This document shows positions 6,266 to 36,852 of a stretch of 41,154 bases of DNA, in pieces. Both the position numbers and the translations under genes were made by a program. The notes under the pieces were generated by a model. The model worked only from the letters and a program-made list of their open reading frames with translations. It did no database searches and was not told where the DNA came from. Source of the stretch: Candidatus Poribacteria bacterium (GTDB taxonomy: Bacteria; Poribacteria; WGA-4E; PCPOR2b); the NCBI GenBank assembly GCA_021295755.1, contig JAGWBT010000019.1, positions 6,887 to 48,040 on the forward strand. Direction: 5' to 3'. Each line of letters begins with the position of its first letter. Position 1 is the stretch's first letter.

Positions 6266-9200
6266 ATGACATTAGACTGGCGAGGGTTTTTGGTTGTTGT
6301 TTTGTTATTTTTTATCGGATGTATTTTTACTGCGCCTGACGAGACGCCAGAAGTGGTAGATCAGTCCATGCCTTGGGAGGCAACCGCGCTTTTAAGCGAT
6401 CAGGTCAACGCTATCGCGGCAGATGCCGAACACATCTGGGTTGCAACCGACAAGGGGATCAATCGCTTCATCAAACACGAAAGTTTGTGGATAAGCTACA
6501 CCGTCGAAGATGGGTTGGCGAATAACAAGGTTTCTAGCGTGGCGGTAGATGGGGAGGCTGTCTGGTTTGGCACAGAATCCGGCGTTTCAAAATACCAACC
6601 CAAAATTGATGAATGGATGACCTACACCCGCGACGACGGTCTGCCGAGCAATCGTGTTAGGGCTATCGGTGTGGATGGAAACTACATCTGGTTTGGCACG
6701 GATAAAGGCTTGAGCCGATACAATAAAGCGATTGATATTTGGGCACTTCGCACGACTGACGATGGCGGTTTGACCAGTAATGAGATTTCCGCTATCGCGG
6801 TGGAGGATGAATATGTCTGGTTTGCAACCGACAAAGGTGTATCCAGATACGATAAGAAGATTGATTCTTGGACACAGTTGACCAAAAGTGAGGGCTTGGC
6901 GGACGACAAGGTCACAACTATCGCTATTGATGAGGATTTCATCTGGTTCGGCACAGAAAATGCCGGCGTGAGTTTATACAGCAACACAGAGCAAACATTT
7001 GTAAAAACCTACACGCGCACCGGTCTACTTGAAACAGACAAGATCAATTACATCTTGGTTGACGGTCTGTATGTTTGGATCGGCACGGCGAATGAGGGTG
7101 TCCAAAGATACATTAAACCGGTTGACACATGGGTTCACTACAAAATGCAAGACGGGCTCCCATCTTCAAACATCACAGCGATAGCAGTCGATGGTAAGTA
7201 TGTCTGGTTCGGCACTTATGAGGACGGGCTAGCACGATTCGATAAGATTCGTGGGCTTTGGAGTGTAGTCAAAAAGGCAGAAGGCTTGGTGAGCGATAAT
7301 ATCAAATCAATTGCCGAGCAGGATGGTGCCCTTTGGATCGGCACAGCGATGGGACTCAGTCGATTTAACTTGCAATCTGAGGAGTGGAAAACCTACACCA
7401 AAGCACAGGGATTAACGACCAATTATATTACCCGCGTTGTCGCTGCTGCTGATGCAATCTGGGTTGGAACATCAAAGGGAGTAGGACTATACCAGAACAA
7501 TCGGTGGAAATTCTGGCGGCATCAACACGGTCTTCCAAGCGACTTCGTCCTCGATATAGTGGTCATCGATCAAACGGTCTGGGTTGGCACGCGCAATGGG
7601 CTTTGTCGATACAATCAAGAAAACGATAAATGGCAAACTTTTGAAGACCTGACAGGAATGTGGATAAATGCCATCGCTGTTGACGCTGGTTCCCTATGGC
7701 TCGGAACCGGTCGAGGGCTAGCCCAACTCACCGATCAACGCGTCATGTTTCACACATCGCACATCACGCATCACGTCAATGCCATTGCAAGTGAGCGGGA
7801 TATGCTCTGGGTCGGTACACAGGGTGGGCTCTTCATGTTCGATAAACGGGAGAAAAGATGGCATAATTTCAACACGGAGGATGGGCTGCCGAATGATAAC
7901 GTGCGAACACTTGCCATCACTAAAGATGCGCTTTGGATCGGTACACCGGGTGGGTTAGGCGTACTCCCCCGTAACGAGTGGCGCCCCTCAGCGACAAGAT
8001 TGGGTGGAGGGCAGCACTTTGATTTAACCCGGCCAGGGATAGAGATGGGCCACGAAAATGTACGGGATATTTGTGTGGTAGATGATCAAATCTGGCTGGG
8101 GACAATCGGCGGATTGGGCATTTACTCCGTCGAGGACAACTCTTGGCGAGCAATTCGTGCAAAGGAGCGGACAGTTGTTTTGCGCCACAGCAGTATAGTA
8201 CACACAGCGCTAGATGGCGATTGGGTGTGGTTTGTAGCATGGCCGGGCACCTCCAACGGAGAGATCATTCGGTATGACAAACGCACAGGAACTTGGACGC
8301 ACTACATGAAAGAGGATGTGACGGAAATTCACCAGAGGGGTTTACTGAAAGGGAGAAAACGAGAAGACGAGAAAACGAAAGGACGAGGAAGCGAGGAAGC
8401 AGGACAGGGAGGGAGCGAGAAAAAAAATATGCTCCCATATTCCCACGTTCATTTGCCACAAGTTGGTGAGGAGATTCCACCTTCACACACTTTGAATAAT
8501 GAAACACCAAAAGGCAAGGACCGCTACGATCAAAAAAGGAATGGTTGGCCGAACTTGCCTTTCATTACTCAAATTGATTGGATGGCGGTGGCTGATGACA
8601 GTGTATGGTTTGCCACGGACGGTGGGGTGCTCGCTTATTACAAAAACTCGGATATATGGCGGCACTACACAACCAGAGATGGACTGGCAGCGAATAAAAC
8701 GACAACATTGATGGTCGATGGAGATGACGTATGGGTGGTCTTGAGGGATAATCGCATCTGTCGCTATCGGCGGGATACGGACGAATGGGAGACCCATCAG
8801 GTAGTTTTTAAGGAGATTTCCCCTGATATGGAATCATACCGTACGCGCCTTGCCGCAGACAGACGTTATGTCTGGGTTCCCGCACAAATGGAGGGGGTAG
8901 CACGTTACGACAAACAGAATGGAACATGGAAACGTTACACCGCAGCGAATGGTCTATTAGATACGATGATCGGTTTTGTTGTCGTGGACAACGATGATGT
9001 GTGGGCTTACGGTGGCTGGGGTGAAGGCTTGAGCAAGTATGACGAGAACATAGATAGCTGGGTCATCATTGATTCCAGCAAAGGGTTAGTTGCTGATCAG
9101 ATTCGGGAAGTTATCTCCGGAGTTGACTATATGTGGGTGTTGTATAACCAAAGTTGGTGGGAAAACGACGATACCGTTCCCGCAAGTGGATTTCATAGAG

Positions 9201-13400: not shown

Positions 13401-14526
13401 CTTTAGTGAGGAGAATGGTCTTGCAAGCAACGACCTCATTGAGCATTCCCTAGTGGTAGATGACAATTATGCTTGGGTGGGGACAGCCGGGGGATTAAGC
13501 CGATATGACCTAAAGAAAGAGGTATGGACCACTTTCACTCGGTCGCCTCTGACGCGGACGCTCCGCGAGTCGAAAGTGTACGCAATAGCCGCCGAAGGGC
13601 GTTATGTGTGGTTAGCGACAAGCAATGGCTTGCATCGCTATGACAAGCAAACAGATCGTTGGTTTGCCCCTCGTCTAAAGGGGATGGAAGATATGGAGGA
13701 TGACACACCAAGTATCACTTGCCTGACAATTGACGAAAAATATGCTTGGCTCGGTACGAACAACGGCGTCCTGCGCTACGATAAAGCTGGAGATCGCTGG
13801 GAAACCTACACCGTTGAAAACGGTTTGCCTTCCAATATTATCCGAGATCTGGATGTAAGGGACTACGACTTATGGATCTCAACAGATCGCGGCGTTGCAA
13901 CCTTCAATCGTCTATCTGATGATCCGAATGCGTGGGAGTCCCACACACAGGCGCTGGCAGTCGAAGGCATGGGTGATAATAAGAAATATGCACAAACACT
14001 TTTGAGCGATGATGTCCGTTGCGTTGCGGTCGGCGAGAAGTTGGTGTGGTTTGGCACGGACAAAGGGGCTTGCCGATATGATAGAGAGAAAAAAACATGG
14101 GCAGTCCTGACCACAGATAGCTCTGTTCTTGATAAGATCGGAATTCAGAGCAACCTGACAGATACTAGCGTCATCGTTATTGATGAAGCAGATATCTGGT
14201 TCGGCACAAGTAAGGGGGCAACAAAGTACAACGCCGAATCCGGGGACTTCGTTACCTACACCCGATCGGACGGTTTGGCAAGCGATGTTGTTACCTGCAT
14301 CGCATTGAACGGGGAGGAAATCTGGTTCGGTTCAACAGATGCGGGAGTCACGCGGCTGGATAGAACTACGGGCGACTGGCGCGTTTTTAATATAGACGAT
14401 GGGTTGCCGCATAACCGAGTCGAGGCAATTGCGCCTGACGGCGATCAGCTCTGGTTTGGCACGGAGCGGGGGTTATGTCGATACAATCAGAAAACAGGAA
14501 CGTGGACAAGTTATGCGGAAGACTAA
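10453..14526 (+). CDS. Giant beta-propeller lipoprotein 2 (29 Reg_prop-like blades)
   Basis: 1357 residues. The N-terminus MRQIRLILGFIILLSL ends in lipobox LANC with Cys19, so a lipid anchor is predicted. It shares the blade pattern of its upstream neighbour and again has 29 VWxGT-type cores by my count. Idiosyncratic blades match in order: blade 5 has ENxGLS, blade 6 ADSGAQRY, blade 7 TYEHGL, and blade 15 has NWKDSTEGAIVRY. A non-blade segment with LSDDPNAWE lies between blades 25 and 26, as in both paralogues. The gene therefore arose by whole-gene duplication. An insert around residues 558-590 is encoded by a palindrome-rich stretch. The gene starts 11 nt after gene 1 and overlaps gene 3 by 14 nt, which indicates cotranscription. 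No enzymatic domain is visible. Confidence 0.85.
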   Translation: MRQIRLILGFIILLSLANCSTHDPQQIHPDFFVDGEGSVISQLLSDRVLSLAVDSRYLWVGTDRGLSRYDKTQGRWTNFTVRDGLAHNHVLSIVLDGAQVWIGTRDGVSRYEIPTNTWRRYMPRDGLAGREVSCIAVDSRFIWFGTPNGLSRYDKETNSWARKGGENGLAGDFVTQIVIDDDYIWVGTENGVSRYDKLTDSWNNYDKESGLIDNSVTAIAADEDSVWFGTENKGLSRYDQRNSEFVRAYTKRDRLTSDQINALAVDGTSLWLGTADSGAQRYILSVNTWREYTAETGLASNHITAIAADGNVVWFGTYEHGLVRYDLRHETWRTYNEIKALSDNDVKDILVTDESIWVATRSGLNQAIDLENVGDSTTLNWRTLSKAEGLADNYVTTVVEVGEDLWIGTPRGLGVRHENEDRWTFFTAKDGLAHDFVTCIAWESGRSGTEGTSPRLWVGTRTGLSTYEPQTRKWNTHSSKLQISGRINDIKLGNDFVWIATADGLVYNNPSAGVSGKLTEKHGLPSKMINTIEIGGNSVWIGTLSGLAQLDKSFITPHISRPDISRILIPAHRDSALRNERDFTFHANVRAIVADGDNTIWIGTPSGLVKYNITEDAWTHYTHENTNEGLASDNVKTISKSGDKIWVGTIAGVSCLDERTGNWSKHVAAITTEVLHSNWVSKLAEDGDGLWFGNWKDSTEGAIVRYNRQIDTFRFFSKEDLPLKSIERPITRIHGLTVGENEVWVGTNSGLLRYDKKTDTWRHYTVKDGLPNNEVWAIVLDAPYLWTAHIGGVVSRYSLETDAWKTYEIVPSVEWSNIGTIAVDSQYVWVTTVWEGIKRYDKLTDQWGSITEADGLGNNEANDLLIDSDYIWVTGWGDASRYNRRTEEWEIFSSQRVLSGVNFGIYRGLDGVWLTYSGWNETGAIASKYHNKTDSWTTLKLPQIEGVDFDRAKQVIETTDVVWFTADEQGLARYNKAAKDWTFFSEENGLASNDLIEHSLVVDDNYAWVGTAGGLSRYDLKKEVWTTFTRSPLTRTLRESKVYAIAAEGRYVWLATSNGLHRYDKQTDRWFAPRLKGMEDMEDDTPSITCLTIDEKYAWLGTNNGVLRYDKAGDRWETYTVENGLPSNIIRDLDVRDYDLWISTDRGVATFNRLSDDPNAWESHTQALAVEGMGDNKKYAQTLLSDDVRCVAVGEKLVWFGTDKGACRYDREKKTWAVLTTDSSVLDKIGIQSNLTDTSVIVIDEADIWFGTSKGATKYNAESGDFVTYTRSDGLASDVVTCIALNGEEIWFGSTDAGVTRLDRTTGDWRVFNIDDGLPHNRVEAIAPDGDQLWFGTERGLCRYNQKTGTWTSYAED
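12127..12210 (+). repeat. Palindrome-rich insert inside propeller gene 2
   Basis: The segment contains GAGGATCCTC (a 10-bp palindrome) and a hairpin ATTCCGCTC - 8 nt - GAGCGGGAT. It encodes a low-complexity linker (SRPDISRILIPAHRDSAL) between blades 12 and 13 that has no counterpart in the paralogues and looks unlike a blade. It resembles small palindromic elements that settle inside coding sequence; I cannot check whether other copies exist. Confidence 0.45.
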
Positions 14527-17500
14527 CAAAGACGAGAAGACGAGAAGACGAGAGAACGTGAAAACGAGACAATTCACTCCTTTTTTGAATACGTGTGGAA
14601 GTGTGGAAGCGAAGGGTCGAGAAAAACACCCGCTCCCTCAAAAACTCGCTCCCTCGCACACTCGTTTTGTCGTTTTCCTGTTATCTCGTTTTCCTGTTAT
14701 CCTCCTGCTTTTTCACCTTGGGTGTGGTCTCACCCAAATTGATCCGTCGGAGAAAAAATCGGCGGCGCTAGAAGAAGCAGCGATTACCCAAACAGCAGCG
14801 GAACAAGCATTGGTGAGCGATAATGTCCGTTGTGTTTCAACTTCAGCTAATCACGTTTGGGTAGGAACAGATCGAGGTGTCAGTGTCTATCATAAAGCGG
14901 ATAACCGTTGGACGAAGTTAGACCGGGAGGACGGCCTACTCTCTGATGATGTTACCGCAATTGCCGCCGATGGGAAATCGGTCTGGATAGGTACGACTCT
15001 CGGCATCAGTTTTTATAACTTGGAAACTGAACATTGGGGAAAGTTCCAGCGTCGCGATGGCTTGGCAAGCAACAAGGTTACTTCCGTTGCTGTGGACGGA
15101 AATTATATCTGGGTTGGGACCGAGGCAGGCATTTCGCGTTATGATAAGACAACGAGGGCGTGGGCATTACAACAAGAGCAGGATAAAGATCAATTTAATG
15201 CAATCACCGCAGTTGCTGTGGAATCCGAGTATGTTTGGTTCGGTACAGAAGACGGGCTCCGACGCTACGATAAGCCCAAGGACTCATGGAACACTTACAC
15301 GAAGGAGGAGGGGCTGGTAGAAAACCATATCCGGTATATCGCTTTGAGCCCTGATGCCGTTTGGGTGGGTACGGAGAAATCAGGTGTAAGCAAGTACAGT
15401 ACAATCAATCAAACCTTCACTGAAAGCCATACCCGGACGGATCGTATAGAGAGCGATTTCATCAGAGCGATTGCCGTTGATGGGGACAATGTCTGGTTTG
15501 GCTCGGCGGACCGTGGAATCCGGCGGTACATCACAACGGTGGACACTTGGTTCAAGTACACCACAGCACAAGGATTGGTTAGCGATCACATTACCGCGTT
15601 GGCTGTTGATGGTAGGACTATTTGGATTGGCACTTACGAGCACGGTTTGAGTCGATACGATAAAGTGACAGATGGGTGGACATGGTATTCCAAACGGGAT
15701 ATGCTGGCGTCGAATCAGGTTAAGACACTGGTTTCAACTGGAGATGCACTTTGGGTTGGTACAAATAAAGGTTTGAGCCGCTACGCGTTTCGGGAAAAAA
15801 CGTGGAAAACCTACACCAAAGCAGATGGTTTAACGACAAACTATATTACCTCTTTAGTGGGTGATGGCGATGACGGAACGCTATGGGTTGGGACGTCCTT
15901 GGGGCTAGGAAGACTAGAAGGCGAGCGATGGCGTTTCTATACCGAGCGAAATGGACTGGCAAGCAATTTCGTTACCTGCATTAGCGTCACCAATCAGGTA
16001 TGGGTCGGGACGAAAGGTGGATTAAGTGTCTTAATAGAAGAAGCCCTAACCTCTTCGCCACCATCAGGAATTCAAACGATCAGCGAATCAACAAATCAAC
16101 AAGATTCGTCAATAGGGAAGTCCTCGGATTTCAACTCATCACGCATAACCTTTCGCGCCTCACATTCCTACCTCACTAGTAAGTGGGTGACAGCGGTGCT
16201 GGCAATTGGTGAGGAGGTTTGGGCGGGAACGACTGAAGGATTGTATCGAAGAGATACTACGACAGATAAATTTGAACCCTTTCCGGGCGTAACAGATTAT
16301 GTCAACACACTTGCATTAAGCCCAGATGGACGCTTGCTCGTCGGCACACGGAATGGATTGTGGATTATTCGACCCCCCTTTTATCCCCCCGCTAGCGGGG
16401 GGATAAGGGGGGTAACCAACCTTACCGATGGTTTGCCGAACCTGAATGTTAGGACTGTCGCGATAGATGGAGAAACCATCTGGGTGGGCACACCGGGTGG
16501 GGTTGCGCGTTCCGATGGAGCTAGGGTTCATCGGGTCTTTACGATGCAGCCAGATGGCTTGCTACACGATAATGTTCAGAGCATTGCCGTTGTAGATAAG
16601 CAGATTTTTTTCGGTACGGTTGCCGGACTCGCTGTCTATGAGATAGAGGAAGATCGGTGGGAGAAGCATACGCCATATCACGATACAGAGGTTCTGAGAG
16701 AAGATGAGGCACGTTGGATTGAGTTAGACGGGGACCACCTGTGGGTGCTCAACTGGGGGGCTTCGCCAAATGGTGCAATTCTGAAATTTGATCGGCGCAC
16801 CGATACGTGGGTGGAGTACACGAAGGACGCACTACCACTCTCCTCCGACGTTCCATTTATCACCGCAATTCGCCGGCTGGCGGTGGGGACAGCAGATGTC
16901 TGGTGTGCCACAGGGGATGGCGGTGTACTGCGATACAACAAAGTATCGGATACATGGACGCACTTCACAAGGTCATCTGGACTACCGGGACACCACGCCA
17001 CGCTGGTTGAGGTTGACGAACCAGATGGCGTTTGGGTTGCCTTCCTAGGTGGCGTGGCGGCGCACTATGATACGCAGACAGAGAAATGGGAATCAGTAAA
17101 AGTAACGGAAGCGGGCCCCGGGACGTACATTGAAGATATTGCCTGTACGAAAGATTATGTCTGGTTTTCCACAAATGGCGTTGGGGTCAAGCGGTATGAG
17201 CGGGCGACGAAAACTTGGCGGTCATACACAGAAGCGCAAGGTATGGCGTCACGCTCCGGTCAGTGGATTGCCGCAGACGGAAAAGGGGTATGGACCAGCG
17301 GCGGAAGTTCTTATTCATGGGTCAGTGACCGGGGAACAAGCGGTGTGAGTTACTATCATCCCACCGACGATACTTGGACAATTTATGATAGACGCAAGGG
17401 GCTGCGGGTTAATTGGACCAGGTATGGACAGGTCAGTGAGGATTACGTCTGGTGCTTCGGTTGGGATGGCATCAACAGATACGATAAAGCTGGCAAGTTG

Positions 17501-18811
17501 TGGACCTCCTTCACCCGTAGCGATGGACTTCCCGAATCATCAGTTGAAGCTATTTCCGAGGATATCGATGATTTCTGGGTCGGCACAGGTAGTAAAGGCG
17601 TGCTAAAATACTCGCAAGCGTCCGGTGCATGGACAGTTTTTACGGTCGAAGACGGGCTCGTTCATGATAGCGTCTGGAGATATCAACTCAAAGTCGATTC
17701 AAAATATGTATGGGTAGGTACATCAAGGGGCTTGAGTCGATACGATAAGGAGAAAGGGACGTGGACCTCCTTCACCAAACCAACAACTTTAGCAGATCGG
17801 CGAGCGGTGGCTGTTGCCACCGATTCTCGATACGTCTGGGTCGGTACACACCGTGGCTTGAGTCGATACGACAAGCGGTACGACAGATGGAAACACTTTC
17901 AGCAATCGGAGGAGGAATCAGAGACAGATGAAGAAGGCAATGGGGATGAGGAGGAAGAAGAGGAGGTTGGGGAAAAAGAGGAGAAAAATGAACTTGTTGA
18001 TAACAATGTCATTGACCTATCTGTTGGAAAGCAGTATATTTGGATTGCTACTGAGGGTGGTGTTGGTCGGTATGATAAAATCGCGGATCGGTTTGAATCG
18101 TACACCAAAGACAATCAACTGCCCAGTGTTGATATTCGGGCGATAGTCGAGAATCGAAGCGATGTGTGGATTGGCACAAAAAACGGTATTAGCAAGCATA
18201 GTATTCTTTCCGATGATCGGAATGCGTGGGAAACATACAACGCCGCTATTGAAATTTTGCCAACGGTGGAAGGAAAATACGCCAAGAGTCTGAAAAATGA
18301 TGATGTTCGGTGTCTAGCGGTCGATGAGAATCACGTTTGGGCCGGAACAAAAACCGGTGTCTCGCTCTATGCGCTCAGACAGGGGACGTGGACCACCTTT
18401 ACCCAAAAGGAGGGACTAGCCAGCGATGAAGTTAGTTGTATTACCATCGACAATGAGCGGGTATGGTTCGGAAGCGGGCGCGGCGTAACAGTTTACGACA
18501 CGGCAAATAAAACGTGGAAGATACTTACGGAAGCAGATGGCTTGGGATCGAATCTGATCACATCGATGGCAATCCGTGGGGATCAGGTCTGGTTCGGCAC
18601 ATTCGACAAGGGGGTTACCGTGTTGGACAAAACCACCGGGCAGTGTACGACGTTTACTAAAGCCGATGGACTTCCCCATAATGGCATCCTATCGATTGCG
18701 ATTGATGGCGACTACCTCTGGTTTGGCACACATGGCGGATTGACCCGATATGATTCTCTAACGGGCACATGGACGGTTTATACTGAGCGATTTGACCATG
18801 ATGGAATATGA
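14513..18811 (+). CDS. Giant beta-propeller lipoprotein 3 (29 Reg_prop-like blades)
   Basis: 1432 residues from the ATG at 14513, which overlaps the end of gene 2 by 14 nt; a longer open frame upstream is only antiparallel luck in gene 2. The hydrophobic segment FVVFLLSRFPVILLLF ends in lipobox LGCG with Cys71, so a lipoprotein is predicted, but with an unusually long basic lead of about 50 residues. In-frame GTG/TTG codons at 14558, 14585 and 14603 are alternative starts. Both the lead and the hydrophobic core are encoded by an octamer array. I count 29 blade cores, with the same LSDDRNAWE insert between blades 25 and 26. Extra inserts are an octamer stretch near 16078, a 40-bp palindrome at 16373 and a Glu-rich loop (about 17907-17990) between blades 23 and 24. 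Third gene of the operon; the barrel gene follows after 43 nt. Confidence 0.82.
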   Translation: MRKTNKDEKTRRRENVKTRQFTPFLNTCGSVEAKGREKHPLPQKLAPSHTRFVVFLLSRFPVILLLFHLGCGLTQIDPSEKKSAALEEAAITQTAAEQALVSDNVRCVSTSANHVWVGTDRGVSVYHKADNRWTKLDREDGLLSDDVTAIAADGKSVWIGTTLGISFYNLETEHWGKFQRRDGLASNKVTSVAVDGNYIWVGTEAGISRYDKTTRAWALQQEQDKDQFNAITAVAVESEYVWFGTEDGLRRYDKPKDSWNTYTKEEGLVENHIRYIALSPDAVWVGTEKSGVSKYSTINQTFTESHTRTDRIESDFIRAIAVDGDNVWFGSADRGIRRYITTVDTWFKYTTAQGLVSDHITALAVDGRTIWIGTYEHGLSRYDKVTDGWTWYSKRDMLASNQVKTLVSTGDALWVGTNKGLSRYAFREKTWKTYTKADGLTTNYITSLVGDGDDGTLWVGTSLGLGRLEGERWRFYTERNGLASNFVTCISVTNQVWVGTKGGLSVLIEEALTSSPPSGIQTISESTNQQDSSIGKSSDFNSSRITFRASHSYLTSKWVTAVLAIGEEVWAGTTEGLYRRDTTTDKFEPFPGVTDYVNTLALSPDGRLLVGTRNGLWIIRPPFYPPASGGIRGVTNLTDGLPNLNVRTVAIDGETIWVGTPGGVARSDGARVHRVFTMQPDGLLHDNVQSIAVVDKQIFFGTVAGLAVYEIEEDRWEKHTPYHDTEVLREDEARWIELDGDHLWVLNWGASPNGAILKFDRRTDTWVEYTKDALPLSSDVPFITAIRRLAVGTADVWCATGDGGVLRYNKVSDTWTHFTRSSGLPGHHATLVEVDEPDGVWVAFLGGVAAHYDTQTEKWESVKVTEAGPGTYIEDIACTKDYVWFSTNGVGVKRYERATKTWRSYTEAQGMASRSGQWIAADGKGVWTSGGSSYSWVSDRGTSGVSYYHPTDDTWTIYDRRKGLRVNWTRYGQVSEDYVWCFGWDGINRYDKAGKLWTSFTRSDGLPESSVEAISEDIDDFWVGTGSKGVLKYSQASGAWTVFTVEDGLVHDSVWRYQLKVDSKYVWVGTSRGLSRYDKEKGTWTSFTKPTTLADRRAVAVATDSRYVWVGTHRGLSRYDKRYDRWKHFQQSEEESETDEEGNGDEEEEEEVGEKEEKNELVDNNVIDLSVGKQYIWIATEGGVGRYDKIADRFESYTKDNQLPSVDIRAIVENRSDVWIGTKNGISKHSILSDDRNAWETYNAAIEILPTVEGKYAKSLKNDDVRCLAVDENHVWAGTKTGVSLYALRQGTWTTFTQKEGLASDEVSCITIDNERVWFGSGRGVTVYDTANKTWKILTEADGLGSNLITSMAIRGDQVWFGTFDKGVTVLDKTTGQCTTFTKADGLPHNGILSIAIDGDYLWFGTHGGLTRYDSLTGTWTVYTERFDHDGI
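14527..14703 (+). repeat. 8-bp-period element at the start of propeller gene 3
   Basis: Left part: purine octamers (AGACGAGA repeated, AAACGAGA), then GTGTGGAA twice. Right part: pyrimidine octamers (CGCTCCCT, CGCACACT, CGTTTTGT, CGTTTTCC, TGTTATCT, CGTTTTCC, TGTTATCC). The two ends are in opposite polarity, so the element as a whole is a loose inverted repeat of about 175 bp. It encodes residues 5 to about 64 of the protein. Confidence 0.75.
16078..16110 (+). repeat. Short octamer stretch inside propeller gene 3
   Basis: GATCAGCG, AATCAACA, AATCAACA, AGATTCGT: 8-bp steps encoding an NQQ/ST-rich linker between blades 10 and 11. The surrounding peptide (roughly 16040-16160) has no blade character, so the inserted tract is probably larger than the recognisable octamers. 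Confidence 0.5.
16373..16412 (+). repeat. 40-bp near-perfect palindrome inside coding sequence
   Basis: Six C, TTTTAT, six C, GCTAGC, six G, ATAA, six G. The arms are complementary apart from two extra T. The element is read in frame as PPFYPPASGGIRG within blade 12/13 of propeller protein 3, replacing a segment of similar length in paralogue 1. It behaves like a small mobile palindromic element carried inside a gene. Confidence 0.8.
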
Positions 18812-21578: not shown

Positions 21579-21816
21579 TAGTTCAGAGGTTCGTTGGTTG
21601 ATCGAAGCGCGGAAGCGCGAAACAATGAAAGTGAGAAGGGGAGAGAGTGAGAAATTGAGCCAAGATCTATTGCGCTATAGCTCCGGGTATTCTCCTCTCA
21701 ATGCTGATACCTCGCTGAACCGGCAAGTGAAATTATATCACGTTTGCCAATAAACTCAACAGAAATACGCGCTCGGACCCCAAGTTCATCAGTTCATTAA
21801 TGAACCAATCAGAACC
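21572..21816. repeat. 8-bp-period element between DUF4159 and porV-like genes
   Basis: The left array (21572-21661) runs GGTTCATT, AGTTCAGA, GGTTCGTT, GGTTGATC, then GAAGCGCG, GAAGCGCG, and on to TGAGAAAT. The right array (about 21782-21816) is AGTTCATC, AGTTCATT, AATGAACC, AATCAGAA. GGTTCATT at the left and AATGAACC at the right are inverted, so the arrays bracket the whole 230-bp intergenic gap. The GTTCATTA-type unit contains stops when read on, and here it is confined to gene edges. Confidence 0.65.
21732..21759 (-). promoter_or_regulatory. Candidate promoter for the DUF4159 gene
   Basis: On the minus strand: TTGAGT (21754-21759), a 16-nt spacer and TATAAT (21732-21737) preceded by TGA, an extended -10. 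It leaves a leader of about 150 nt, most of it octamer array. Confidence 0.45.
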
Positions 21817-23047
21817 GCGTCATCAAAGAGATCCGATTGCTATTTCCCAACTCACTGTTGTTCAAGAAAGCGTAATCCACGGAGAAAGCGGCGCCAGTTA
21901 AGAATGAAAGCCGTAACCCTGCACCAGCCGTCATTAAACGGATTGTATTGATGCCTTTCCGCTCCTGAACACCAATCCTTAACGACAGGAGTTCTGCGAA
22001 AACGTACTCCGCACCGTAGTGCATTTCAAACGAGTACAAGCTATCGGTATCAACCGTCAGCAACAAGTGGCTTTTCAACGGTTTGATCGATTGTTTGTAA
22101 GAGAACCCGATCTTCAGGTTCGGCTCAATCGTGTCTGTATTGGACGCTTCACCCGGTTTTTCGGGTGGTGTATTCCAGTATAGCTTTGTTCTAAAAAAAT
22201 CCTGCGCGACGATGCCGATCGACAATTGGCGGGATCGTTCAATAGGGGTTGTCCAGAGCAAACCGAGATCCCCACCGACACCAAGCGCGTTTGTGTTGCG
22301 CAGCGCAGTGATGTAGATTAATTTAGTGCTGCCACCGAGGAACATGTTCAACCGCTTTGATCCTATATTAAACCTGACCTGCCTGCCATAGGATAGGAAG
22401 AAGGCATTGTCGGTGATGTTAAAAGTTCCGACTTGTTTGGGGCGGTTAGCTGGACTGACAGGATTTCCAGGACGTAGGAGTGATGTAATCGGGATATCAT
22501 CAACGCCCACGCGCAGCCAACTCAACCCAAGCGATGCAACCTCACCGATTGGATGAACATAATTGACGAAATCGTAACTATCTAATTCGCCAAGACTGGA
22601 GTGCATAAAAGCTGCTTCGGAATGGCGCAAACGCCCAAGTCCAGCCGGATTCCAATAAGCTGCGGTGGAATCATCAGCGATGGCTGCAAAACTTCCTCCC
22701 ATCCCCAATGGTCGCGCTCCGACACCGAGCGTTAAGAAATCTCCCGCATACTTTTCTGCAGCATGGGCAACGGTGTGACAACAGAGAGCAATGAGAATGC
22801 AGAAAGCCAGAAAGCAGGAAAACGGGAAAGCGGTAAAACGCAAGAAAATTAACCGCAGAGACGCAGAGAACGCAGGGGAAAACAATGAAACAGGAAAACA
22901 AGAAGAAACGGAACGCAAGGACGCCAGGACGCGCAGATGCGGAGGAAAATAATAAAAGTTCTTCTTTGCACCTTTGCGCCGTGGCGACATTGCGTTAAAT
23001 TTCACTTGTTTTCTCGTCTGCTTGTTTTCTCGTTTTCTCGTTATCAT
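21809..23047 (-). CDS. PorV/PorQ-family outer-membrane protein
   Basis: 412 residues from the ATG at 23047 (AGGA about 5 nt upstream); a GTG at 23062 overlapping the porU-like stop is the alternative. The mature part begins AEKYAGDFLTLGVGARPLGMGG and continues AIADDSTAAYWNPAGL, the hallmark opening of the PorV/PorQ/UPF0164 (FadL-like barrel) family, and ends in Phe (SLMTRF). PorV is the shuttle or scaffold subunit that brings type IX cargo to the PorU sortase at the outer membrane. Its position directly after the PorU-like gene supports that pairing. The first 96 residues are odd: a K/R-rich lead, then a very long F/L/S-rich stretch and AHA cleavage site, nearly all encoded by an octamer array. 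Confidence 0.8.
   Translation of the reverse strand: MITRKRENKQTRKQVKFNAMSPRRKGAKKNFYYFPPHLRVLASLRSVSSCFPVSLFSPAFSASLRLIFLRFTAFPFSCFLAFCILIALCCHTVAHAAEKYAGDFLTLGVGARPLGMGGSFAAIADDSTAAYWNPAGLGRLRHSEAAFMHSSLGELDSYDFVNYVHPIGEVASLGLSWLRVGVDDIPITSLLRPGNPVSPANRPKQVGTFNITDNAFFLSYGRQVRFNIGSKRLNMFLGGSTKLIYITALRNTNALGVGGDLGLLWTTPIERSRQLSIGIVAQDFFRTKLYWNTPPEKPGEASNTDTIEPNLKIGFSYKQSIKPLKSHLLLTVDTDSLYSFEMHYGAEYVFAELLSLRIGVQERKGINTIRLMTAGAGLRLSFLTGAAFSVDYAFLNNSELGNSNRISLMTRF
22781..23046. repeat. 8-bp-period element over the start of the porV-like gene
   Basis: Plus-strand units include TGCAGAAA, GCCAGAAA, GCAGGAAA, ACGGGAAA, GCGGTAAA, then GCAGAGAC, GCAGAGAA, CGCAGGGG. After about 22970 the polarity flips to TTTGCACC, TTTGCGCC, GTGGCGAC, ATTGCGTT and TTGTTTTC, TCGTCTGC, TTGTTTTC, TCGTTTTC, TCGTTATC. 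Total about 266 bp, all within the first 90 codons of the porV-like gene. Confidence 0.75.
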
Positions 23048-23058
23048 GAAATCCTGCT

Positions 23059-26000
23059 TCACTTTAATTTCATCATTTTGATGTATTCGGTCAAATCCTT
23101 CTCCCCCGGCATCTTAACGCGAATCTTGCAGTAGTACACGCCGTTGGCGACATTATCGCCATCTCGATCGCGTCCGTCCCAAGGTATCATCGTGAACCCT
23201 GCCCGTGCCGGTTCGGTAAACTCATTGACCAATCGCCCCGACAGACTGTAAATTTTAACCGTCATTTCATCAGCGGCTCCAGTCAGCTCACAGGTAATTA
23301 CAGTTTTATCGCCGAATGGGTTAGGGTAGTTCATTGCATTGAGGAGTTGAAGGATTTTGTGGATACGGAATTCAATCTCTTCCTCCGATTTGTTCCCATC
23401 AAGATCACTGGCACTTAGGCGGACCCGATAGGTTCCCGGTTCTAACTTAGGTGACTGGTAGTTCAGACTAACCTGATTAGACCCTGAAACGTTATTCAGC
23501 CGATATTCCGTCTCTGAGATTGACGTGAATTGCTGATTATCCCGGCTGATTTCAAGATAGACCGGGCGAGTAATGTAATCAATACCGTTCTCGTCTGTAA
23601 GTGTTGCTTGGATGAACGGTTCTGTAGATACTGGATCTCCATCAATAAAATTCTGTTTGCCAATTGTCAACTGGAGGTCAGGAGGGATAGTGTCATTGCT
23701 TTGCATCAGTGTCAACGTACCGGACATCGGGAGTTCAGCGCGGATTCGTCCCGTCTCTATTGTATTAAACCGGAAGCTATCTCCCGCCTCAAATTCTCGC
23801 TGACCAGCTAATATCTTGATGCGCAGACCGAATTCAGGGTAAACGAACTCGCTGCCGACCTTACCGCGTACAGTCTGACCGTTCCGTGATAGGTGACCAT
23901 GTTTTTCCCCTTCAATCTGGAAATGTTCCGAATCCGTGAGCAGAATGATCCATTGATCCGGTGGCATTGATGAATTTTCGTCGAGACGGACATATTGGAG
24001 GCTGCCTCTCCCAATATTTTCTTCGCGGAAAGAAGAGGCAAAGTACGTTGTATCGGAACCGCTGGACACACTGCCAAAGATTTGGAAAGTGATAACATCT
24101 CCAAACTGGAAATCATTCTCGCCTAAATCTATTCCGATGGCAACGCCATCGCTAAATATACCCGGAACTTCGAACGATGGGTCCACGAACCGATTTGGAT
24201 TGATGAGTTCGAGCGATCTGCCTTCTTCGCTGATTAGCAGGCGGTAAGTTTCGGATGATGTAAACAGCAACACCCACTTGCCCACCCGTGCGGCCGTTGG
24301 CTCAATTCTAACTGTGCGGATTTCACCATCACCGTGGTTCGATGCGCTGATGTTTGCGAGCGTAGATTGAATTTCCATCAGTCCGTCGGATGATGTAACC
24401 AATTCGGAATCAAGCCGAACCCAGTTCTTCAGTGTCTCCACCCACAGATACATGCCAATCTCTTTTGCGATAGACTCCGTACCTTCATCAATCGTCACGA
24501 TCTGATCAGGAGCCGGATCTGAAATTTCTTCTAATCCTAGCTCGTCCTTAATTGTTTCTTGCAATGCCAAACGATCGAATCGCAGCTCCACTGTTATTGG
24601 CTGTTGCAGCAGATTTTGATTCAATGACGCTGTGTCCAGCGCCGCATTGTAGGCAACAGTGTCCTCCCCGCTTGGCAGCGTGACAGGGACGAGACTCGAT
24701 GAATTCACCGGTTTCGGCTGCTGGTGGCTATTTAGCGGTGTGATCGTCAAAACAGCGGGTTGCGGAACAGCGTGAGCGGGTATGCGGAAATCGATCGCTG
24801 CATCTTGGCTAAAAATATGCTGATCTCTTTGACCGATGAGGACACTCTGAACTGGAATGAGACGCGATGTAATATTGTCTTTCTCATCGCCTTCGCGCAG
24901 TTTTCCATAAGGCATTTCGCTGGGGTTGAAGGCAGGATCGACATAGACGAAAACCTCGTGATTGCCGATCGACAATTCATGTTTAAGGGTTGCTGTTGCG
25001 ATCCAGTTGGTGTTAAGAGGTCTATCCCTGAAAGCACGAGGACGGCCTAGGCTATCGGTTTCACCCCCGGTCTTGAGTGAATTTTTGTGAGGTTCTACCG
25101 GATCTCTGCGCTGCCATGCGCTAGGGGGAATCTGGGTCTTCCCAAGCAGCTTTGCACTAGTATCAACAACGCCATCCCCATCACGATCAGGGTTGCCTGC
25201 AAAAAAAGCGACTTCTAGATTCTCTTTGAGTTCTATATCTTCAATCTGCTCAATATCTGCGTTAATCGTCCATGCACTATCTTCGCGGGAGTGGTCATAG
25301 TAGATTAACGGACCTGAGAATCCCAGGCCGGATGTAACTCGCACGTCGGGAAATACAAACGGACGATATGTCCTCCGTCCGGAATAGACGTGTCGACTGT
25401 CGATATCAACCACCGTAATCTCATATCGGATGCTGGCTCGGTTGGTTGGTAATGGTAATGGCTTGGGAGTTGTATACCAGCCGTTGCCGCGCGATGTATC
25501 CCGGATCATCACTTCTTCAAACGATTCCCGTTTTTCCGGGTCTCGCCACTCTAGGATAACTAACTTGATACCTTGTTCATTCAATTCATCGGAAACCTGT
25601 GTGGATATACGAAAATGAGAAGGCTCACTACCCGGGCTGCCAGCGACGAGTTCCGGCTGTATATCAAGGATCTTCGGTACAAGCACGGTAAATGAGCGTC
25701 CAGTGGCAGCGATACTGGTCGCACTTTCGGCATAAAATTCAACATGGCCCTCGCCTGCACTAATTCCTTTGGGCACAGGGATGGAAAGTCCGGAGAATTT
25801 TCCGTTTACGACGGTTGTCTCTTGGGTGACAGGAACATTGCCTAAGTATACCTTCAAGAGCTCTTCTTCGCCTTCAATGTTTGAATAGGTGCCGGGAAAA
25901 ACTGCTTTTGCATAGAGCCGTCCATTGAAATTTGAAATTGGCGTAAACCGTTTTTGCTTAATTGCAGGGTCGTAGGTAGCTTCGACAATCTGCCCCGGAG

Positions 26001-36462: not shown

Positions 36463-36757
36463 TCACATCTCCTAGAAATAATGCAAGTTGCCGCTGCCTG
36501 TCTGAATCAGAATTCTCTGGATTTACAGGATAGATCCTATGAAACGACCCATAACACGAACGAAGCCAAGTAGTCTGACTATGTACATTGCACACCACCA
36601 CGATTCCGCGGTTTGGCAGGGCACTGACAGGTGAAAAAAAATATTTCAATGCCCTAGACGGGTATTCATAATTCGCGGGTGTGCCGCGAATCCCGATGGC
36701 CACTATACTTGAGCGGTATTACATAAGTGTGCTATGCTATAGCGGTTGTCTGTAAAA

Positions 36758-36852
36758 GGTTTGTTGACCTGCCATTTAGCATCGACTAAGGTTTGCTGAT
36801 GCCATATTAGCATTGACTAAGGTTTGCTGACCTACCAGATCAGCATCAATTT
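36758..36852. repeat. Tandem repeat, about three units of 31-32 bp
   Basis: Each unit begins GGTTTGCTGA (first unit GGTTTGTTGA), continues CCTRCCAKWT-like and ends AGCATYGACTAA; the third unit is more divergent. There is no spacer between units, so it is not a CRISPR. Confidence 0.65.

Follow-up and report, generated by a model that had tools for sequence, protein, structure and literature searches.

An inverted octamer element probably extends or remodels signal peptides of exported proteins in Candidatus Poribacteria

Octamer element at the 5' end of the propeller gene

The 5' segment of gene 3 in the window (the whole 41,154-nucleotide stretch of Candidatus Poribacteria DNA that was analysed) is probably a dispersed inverted octamer element that extends or remodels an existing signal peptide, and the same probably holds in other families of exported proteins. 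The octamer is in frame in the predicted signal peptides of gene 3 and of at least three other such families. The element, its dispersal, its position, the conservation of the reading frame and the occurrence of element-free orthologues were all read directly from the sequences compared. The genomes were mostly metagenome assemblies with mechanical gene calls (the relatives, by their protein matches, were Candidatus Poribacteria metagenome assemblies), and G001, which carries the UPF0164-like case described below, was a single contig.

Gene 3 matched the Pfam family Reg_prop at 1.6e-40. The octamer array originally described at its 5' end was present, with five pyrimidine units in the gene 3 frame (Table 1). 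Lag-8 identity from the gene 2 stop to the signal-peptide core was 0.52, compared with 0.25 +/- 0.03 in dinucleotide shuffles (z 8.2), and the purine arm had a lag-8 periodicity of its own (z 4.7). The purine arm, absent from the original description, was the inverted partner of the pyrimidine arm, with 33-nt arms that were 76% complementary, and the element strand folded into a long stem-loop of -57.7 kcal/mol, better than shuffles (z -3.1). An Rfam search of the window at the gathering threshold gave no match. The signal-peptide translation across the array was ...TRFVVFLLSRFPVILLLFHLGCG. The units had been expected to encode the hydrophobic core; they encoded the first half of the hydrophobic region, and the signal-peptide end, VILLLFHLGCG, was one common to four species. 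The Cys codon (14723-14725) fell just beyond the interval 14527-14722 in which the array was originally described. The paralogues had plain signal peptides, MTLDWRGFLVVVLLFFIGC and MRQIRLILGFIILLSLANC, as had also been claimed.

Table 1. Positions of gene 3, the octamer elements and their parts in the window
Feature	Position	Strand	Sequence or remark
Gene 3, Reg_prop propeller protein	14513..18811	+	Probable start ATG 14513, overlapping the gene 2 stop codon
Whole inverted octamer element in gene 3	14529-14702	+	Order: purine arm, loop, pyrimidine arm
Purine octamer arm	14529..14568	+	(GAGAAGAC)n; directly after the gene 2 stop; read as basic EKTRRRENVKTR
Inner part of the element and loop	14569..14662	+	Inner octamers CTCGCTCC, CTCGCACA; based on alignment and fold
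Pyrimidine octamer arm, five units	14663..14702	+	Codes for RFVVFLLSRFPVI, first part of the hydrophobic region
Pyrimidine unit 1	14663-14670		CGTTTTGT; gene 3 frame
Pyrimidine unit 2	14671-14678		CGTTTTCC; gene 3 frame
Pyrimidine unit 3	14679-14686		TGTTATCT; gene 3 frame
Pyrimidine unit 4	14687-14694		CGTTTTCC, same as unit 2; gene 3 frame
Pyrimidine unit 5	14695-14702		TGTTATCC; gene 3 frame
Common signal-peptide end LLLFHLGC	14703..14725	+	Conserved Cys; near-identical in G003/G004, close in G005
Second octamer element	22795..23049	-	Signal peptide of the UPF0164-like gene 21809-23062 (-)
Second element, purine arm	23049-23005	-	Just after ATG (about 23047)
Second element, pyrimidine arm	22846-22795	-
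Third octamer array, purine sense	8344..8420	+	Gene 1, hydrophilic insertion between propeller blades

The gene 3 sequence had the basic n-region and hydrophobic core expected of a Sec signal peptide (core of 7-15 residues), and its best 14-residue hydropathy was 2.49, similar to that in G003 (1.82) and G004 (2.25). The predicted peptide would be atypical in two respects: its n-region would be unusually long, at about 50 residues, and its hydrophobic region would be interrupted by an Arg, which is also unusual. The PROSITE pattern PS51257 disallows His or Tyr at position -3. Residue -3 of gene 3 was His in G000, G003 and G004 and Tyr in G005 and thus fails the pattern (compared by eye), and the orthologue in the family-level relative G006 had a plain peptide, MKKQVKCTIQILHYLLLISLIGSGLAQ, without Cys at the corresponding position. 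The name lipobox, given originally to this site, was therefore too strong, and because of the residue at -3, lipidation of the gene 3 product is doubtful.

Gene 3 signal peptide in related genomes

An equivalent of ATG 14513 was conserved and in frame in G000, G003, G004 and G005. These four species kept both the M(R/L)K(I/T)NK start and the signal-peptide end (LLFHLGCG or, in G005, LLFYLGCR), and differed in the sequence that separates the two. In G005 a short octamer hairpin stood between start and end; G000 had the same plus a 78-nt in-frame stretch, which the alignment placed within the inner part and loop of the element. G003 and G004 had a homologous signal peptide whose pyrimidine part was at chance for lag 8 (z 1.1 and 0.4), indicating that the array is dispensable for the predicted signal. 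A faint lag-8 signal remained over the whole segment in both (z 2.8 and 3.7), and a search of further genomes of the genus showed no close gene 3 orthologue, so that the polarity can be read both ways, as gain in G000/G005 or as decay in G003/G004.

The array had been thought to have replaced or extended the original signal. Extension or remodelling agrees with the start and end kept in four species, but the array is a remodelling of the predicted gene 3 signal and not its source. The original prediction had itself named an orthologue with the same signal peptide and no octamer pattern as evidence against it, and such an orthologue was found, in substance, in G003 and G004.

Arrays in other exported-protein genes

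The UPF0164-like gene carrying the second element had a UPF0164 match just below the Pfam cut-off. In G003 and G004 this gene had no element and a plain signal peptide, MTTRFRTIFILIALCCHAVAHA or close to it; in G000, G005 and G001 the element separated the start from this same core, its edges being sharp in comparison with G003/G004, and G002 had a degenerate insert. In the window, the second element encoded the greater part of this gene's N-terminal extension. The Omp85-domain gene (G000:C150) had Peptidase_MA_2, PD40 and Omp85 matches. In G000, MMKT... and ...FLSVGSGWAQ flanked RFLSRFLVFSFSRRPVF, a similar stretch was present in G005, and the others were without it; this array was read as a single gain because G000 and G005 form a supported clade. 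In both the UPF0164-like and the Omp85-domain genes, the dispersed element was in frame within genes whose orthologues lack it. In LRR genes of G003, G004 and G005 the array (MKFSFSRFLVFAVAVVSLITQAPAQ and variants) came immediately after ATGAAA, with a ribosome-binding-like site upstream, and coded most of the n- and h-regions (MKFSFSRFLVFAVAV). Several LRR paralogues had plain signal peptides.

Array contexts were read from fetched loci and mechanical ORFs for the arrays of G000, G003 and G005. Because they showed recurrence, we abandoned the reading that array and signal peptide are unrelated and simply overlap. The start-plus-array ORFs of L004, L028/L167, L117, L120 and L144 were rejected as 5' untranslated arrays followed by a better start. 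A search for a start with a relaxed pyrimidine array added only L254 (G005), whose two octamers may be due to chance; the mirror control, a start codon with a purine array, gave many matches and few long ORFs. At L155 (G007:C596:3138), purine octamers were found right after an ATG of uncertain standing as the start, upstream of a lipoprotein-like signal peptide (MLCVSRFIWFSLLPMLLVAC), a possible further case.

In its strong form, the original prediction was that the array created or replaced the export signal and offered a route to new secreted proteins. An octamer that occurs in four exported families, making half of the gene 3 hydrophobic region and most of the LRR n- and h-regions, would agree with this. 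However, octamer-free orthologues of gene 3 and of the UPF0164-like and Omp85-domain genes have signal peptides of their own, as do several LRR paralogues, and no cytoplasmic protein that had gained a signal peptide was found among the cases compared. With this form already refuted for gene 3 by G003/G004, it is very unlikely that the pyrimidine repeat supplied an export signal to a protein lacking one.

Translation and maintenance of the reading frame

We infer that gene 3 is translated from 14513 and that its product is actually exported. No in-frame ATG, GTG or TTG was found between 14603 and the gene 3 core; therefore the pyrimidine arm would be read if the core is made. Start-to-core lengths were 126, 135 and 204 in gene 3, 72, 174, 225, 291 and 294 in the UPF0164-like gene, and 108, 132, 153, 174 and 210 in the Omp85-domain gene, so that all 13 different lengths in these three genes, whose starts and cores were aligned, were divisible by three. 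By our calculation, the chance that ten length changes would all keep the frame is about (1/3)^10 = 2e-5.

These results bear on the alternative that the segment is not translated but forms a leader hairpin near the 5' end of the gene 3 mRNA, acting in termination, stability or coupling, and that translation begins further downstream. Many copies of the octamer were indeed intergenic or 5' untranslated (e.g., L004, L028, L117 and L120), and the strand folds well. However, the absence of a start codon after 14603 and before the core, the preservation of the frame in 10 of 10 length changes and the upstream ATG conserved in four species make such a leader improbable.

A phase-variation switch was also considered, in which changes in octamer number would alter the reading frame and thereby switch the exported protein on or off. 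In Neisseria opa genes, a pyrimidine-rich tandem repeat, (CTCTT)n, codes for part of the signal peptide (PMC3960869, PMC4534519). The octamer arrays resemble opa in being pyrimidine tandem repeats within signal-peptide codons, and their unit length, 8, is not divisible by 3. Unlike opa, which has a pentamer in one gene family with on/off switching, the octamers were imperfect and belonged to a dispersed inverted element, and every start-to-core length compared was in frame. Since the arrays are also short (five units) and imperfect units lower slippage, switching of this kind is highly unlikely.

Dispersal and coding properties of the element

With one mismatch allowed, CTCGTTTTCYYGTTWTC had 29 matches in the 5.03 Mb genome of this sponge-associated bacterium (G000), compared with none in the reversed control. 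It was also abundant in G003 (37 matches) and G005 (32 matches), two of the genus's five other genomes; among the genomes searched, it was low in the rest of the genus and close to background across most of the order. Where paired arms were adjacent, the purine arm came first in all nine cases, which by our count represent six independent sites. An ORF stop was found within 30 nt upstream (<=30 nt) of 31 of 90 R-sense arrays, compared with 7 of 90 Y-sense arrays, indicating that the usual site of an R-sense array is often directly downstream of a gene. Dense clusters with several pyrimidine arrays on one strand, mostly intergenic, were observed at G003:C58 160500-166500 (L127) and at L138. A repeat of another type (CGCAAAGACGCAAAG / CTTTGCGTCTTTGCG) was often found within or beside octamer elements (window 22853-22990, L004, L016, L126 and L127), and a 31-nt tandem repeat of 2.4 copies was present at window 36756-36831.

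Across 90 arms in all frames, the mean Kyte-Doolittle hydropathy was -2.45 for the purine reading, which was hydrophilic and basic, and +0.86 for the hydrophobic pyrimidine reading, against a background of -0.36. The stop-free fractions of frames were 0.63, 0.89 and 0.63 for purine, pyrimidine and background; the purine arm was thus as open as background in general, and it was open at the signal-peptide sites. Because the element is inverted with purines first, either strand reads basic and then hydrophobic, in the same order as the n- and h-regions of a signal peptide, and because eight is not a multiple of three, all frames yield the same cyclic peptides when they are free of stops.

Coding arrays found outside signal peptides were of purine sense only, namely the gene 1 loop and the tails of L012 and L139. 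At the gene 1 site, G005 was shorter by 8 residues (24 nt, three octamers). The insertion around this array was hypervariable among relatives, and array-coded C-terminal tails (RRENEKTR* / QRENETTR*) were observed in the related genes L012 and L139 (G000:C25, G003:C65). Overall, four of the six independent coding families had the array in the signal peptide. Signal peptides make up, as a rough estimate, under 2% of coding sequence, and on this rough basis the placement is far above their share. Selective tolerance suffices as an explanation.

Alternatively, slippage or selection for hydrophobic codons might have generated the octamers locally, so that they merely resemble the dispersed arrays. 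Pyrimidine codons are largely hydrophobic (F, L, and V from GTT), signal peptides are prone to such tracts, and the three-octamer difference between G000 and G005 inside gene 1 fits slippage. However, the dispersed arrays have the same unit, the element also contains the purine arm and inner octamers, and comparison with G003/G004 shows the insertion in the UPF0164-like gene to be sharply bounded. An origin in place is thus rather unlikely.

Discussion

The explanation we favour is that the segment is one copy of a stem-loop of purine and then pyrimidine octamers dispersed in this genus of Candidatus Poribacteria, with R-sense arrays favouring sites behind stop codons. As genes 2 and 3 overlap, a site just behind the gene 2 stop lies within the 5' end of gene 3, downstream of the start codon and upstream of the signal-peptide core. 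Having no in-frame stop there, the element would be translated, its purine arm giving a long basic n-region and its pyrimidine arm the first half of the hydrophobic region, while the older end VILLLFHLGC would stay. Arrival or growth may have been by transposition, by recombination between arrays or by slippage, and local slippage could build such arrays; the variable arrays blur insertion edges. Among coding segments, a signal peptide would best tolerate an insertion that reads basic and then hydrophobic, which would account for the recurrence in other exported families.

Several known repeats have a comparable architecture. The Yersinia element YPAL/RU-2 is a 168 bp dispersed palindromic element, mostly intergenic, with an open frame in which hydrophobic residues abound. 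It contributes to one signal peptide, at locus YPO1552, for which a new exported protein was proposed (Delihas 2007; PMC2229807). The octamer element resembles it in architecture and placement, being dispersed, palindromic and located in a signal peptide. Unlike that one highlighted case, it consists of octamer arrays and is found in several families, in pre-existing signal peptides and with octamer-free orthologues. Rickettsia palindromic elements (RPE) are stem-loop repeats that are intergenic or translated in frame, in 19 reading frames, many of conserved proteins (PMC2229807). Like RPE, the octamer element is a stem-loop repeat found both between genes and in frame inside them, and with YPAL it shares the character of a dispersed repeat with inverted arms. 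By contrast, it belongs to another phylum and is built of octamer repeats, and RPE are not said to concentrate in signal peptides. The R-sense arrays just behind stop codons recall REP and other 3'-end palindromes in position, but they differ from REP in consisting of octamers in variable copy number. A search of the literature on octamer arrays in Poribacteria, or on signal-peptide-encoding tandem repeats in general, found nothing direct.

A more far-reaching idea, which we offer tentatively as a possibility, is that the inverted element serves as a prefabricated signal-peptide module. In this genus, tight operons would have captured it repeatedly, at the 5' ends of genes for exported proteins, where it would drive the turnover of signal peptides and sometimes their origin (perhaps in the LRR genes). 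For annotation, the arrays call for caution because they produce long extensions at the N-terminus and lead to wrongly chosen starts. Signal peptides evolve quickly, and their emergence is seldom observed directly; here one dispersed repeat occurs in the predicted signal peptides of several unrelated families, and because closely related genomes lack the repeat, its capture, frame keeping and decay can be followed. The order of the arms, basic and then hydrophobic, suggests why such insertions are tolerated.
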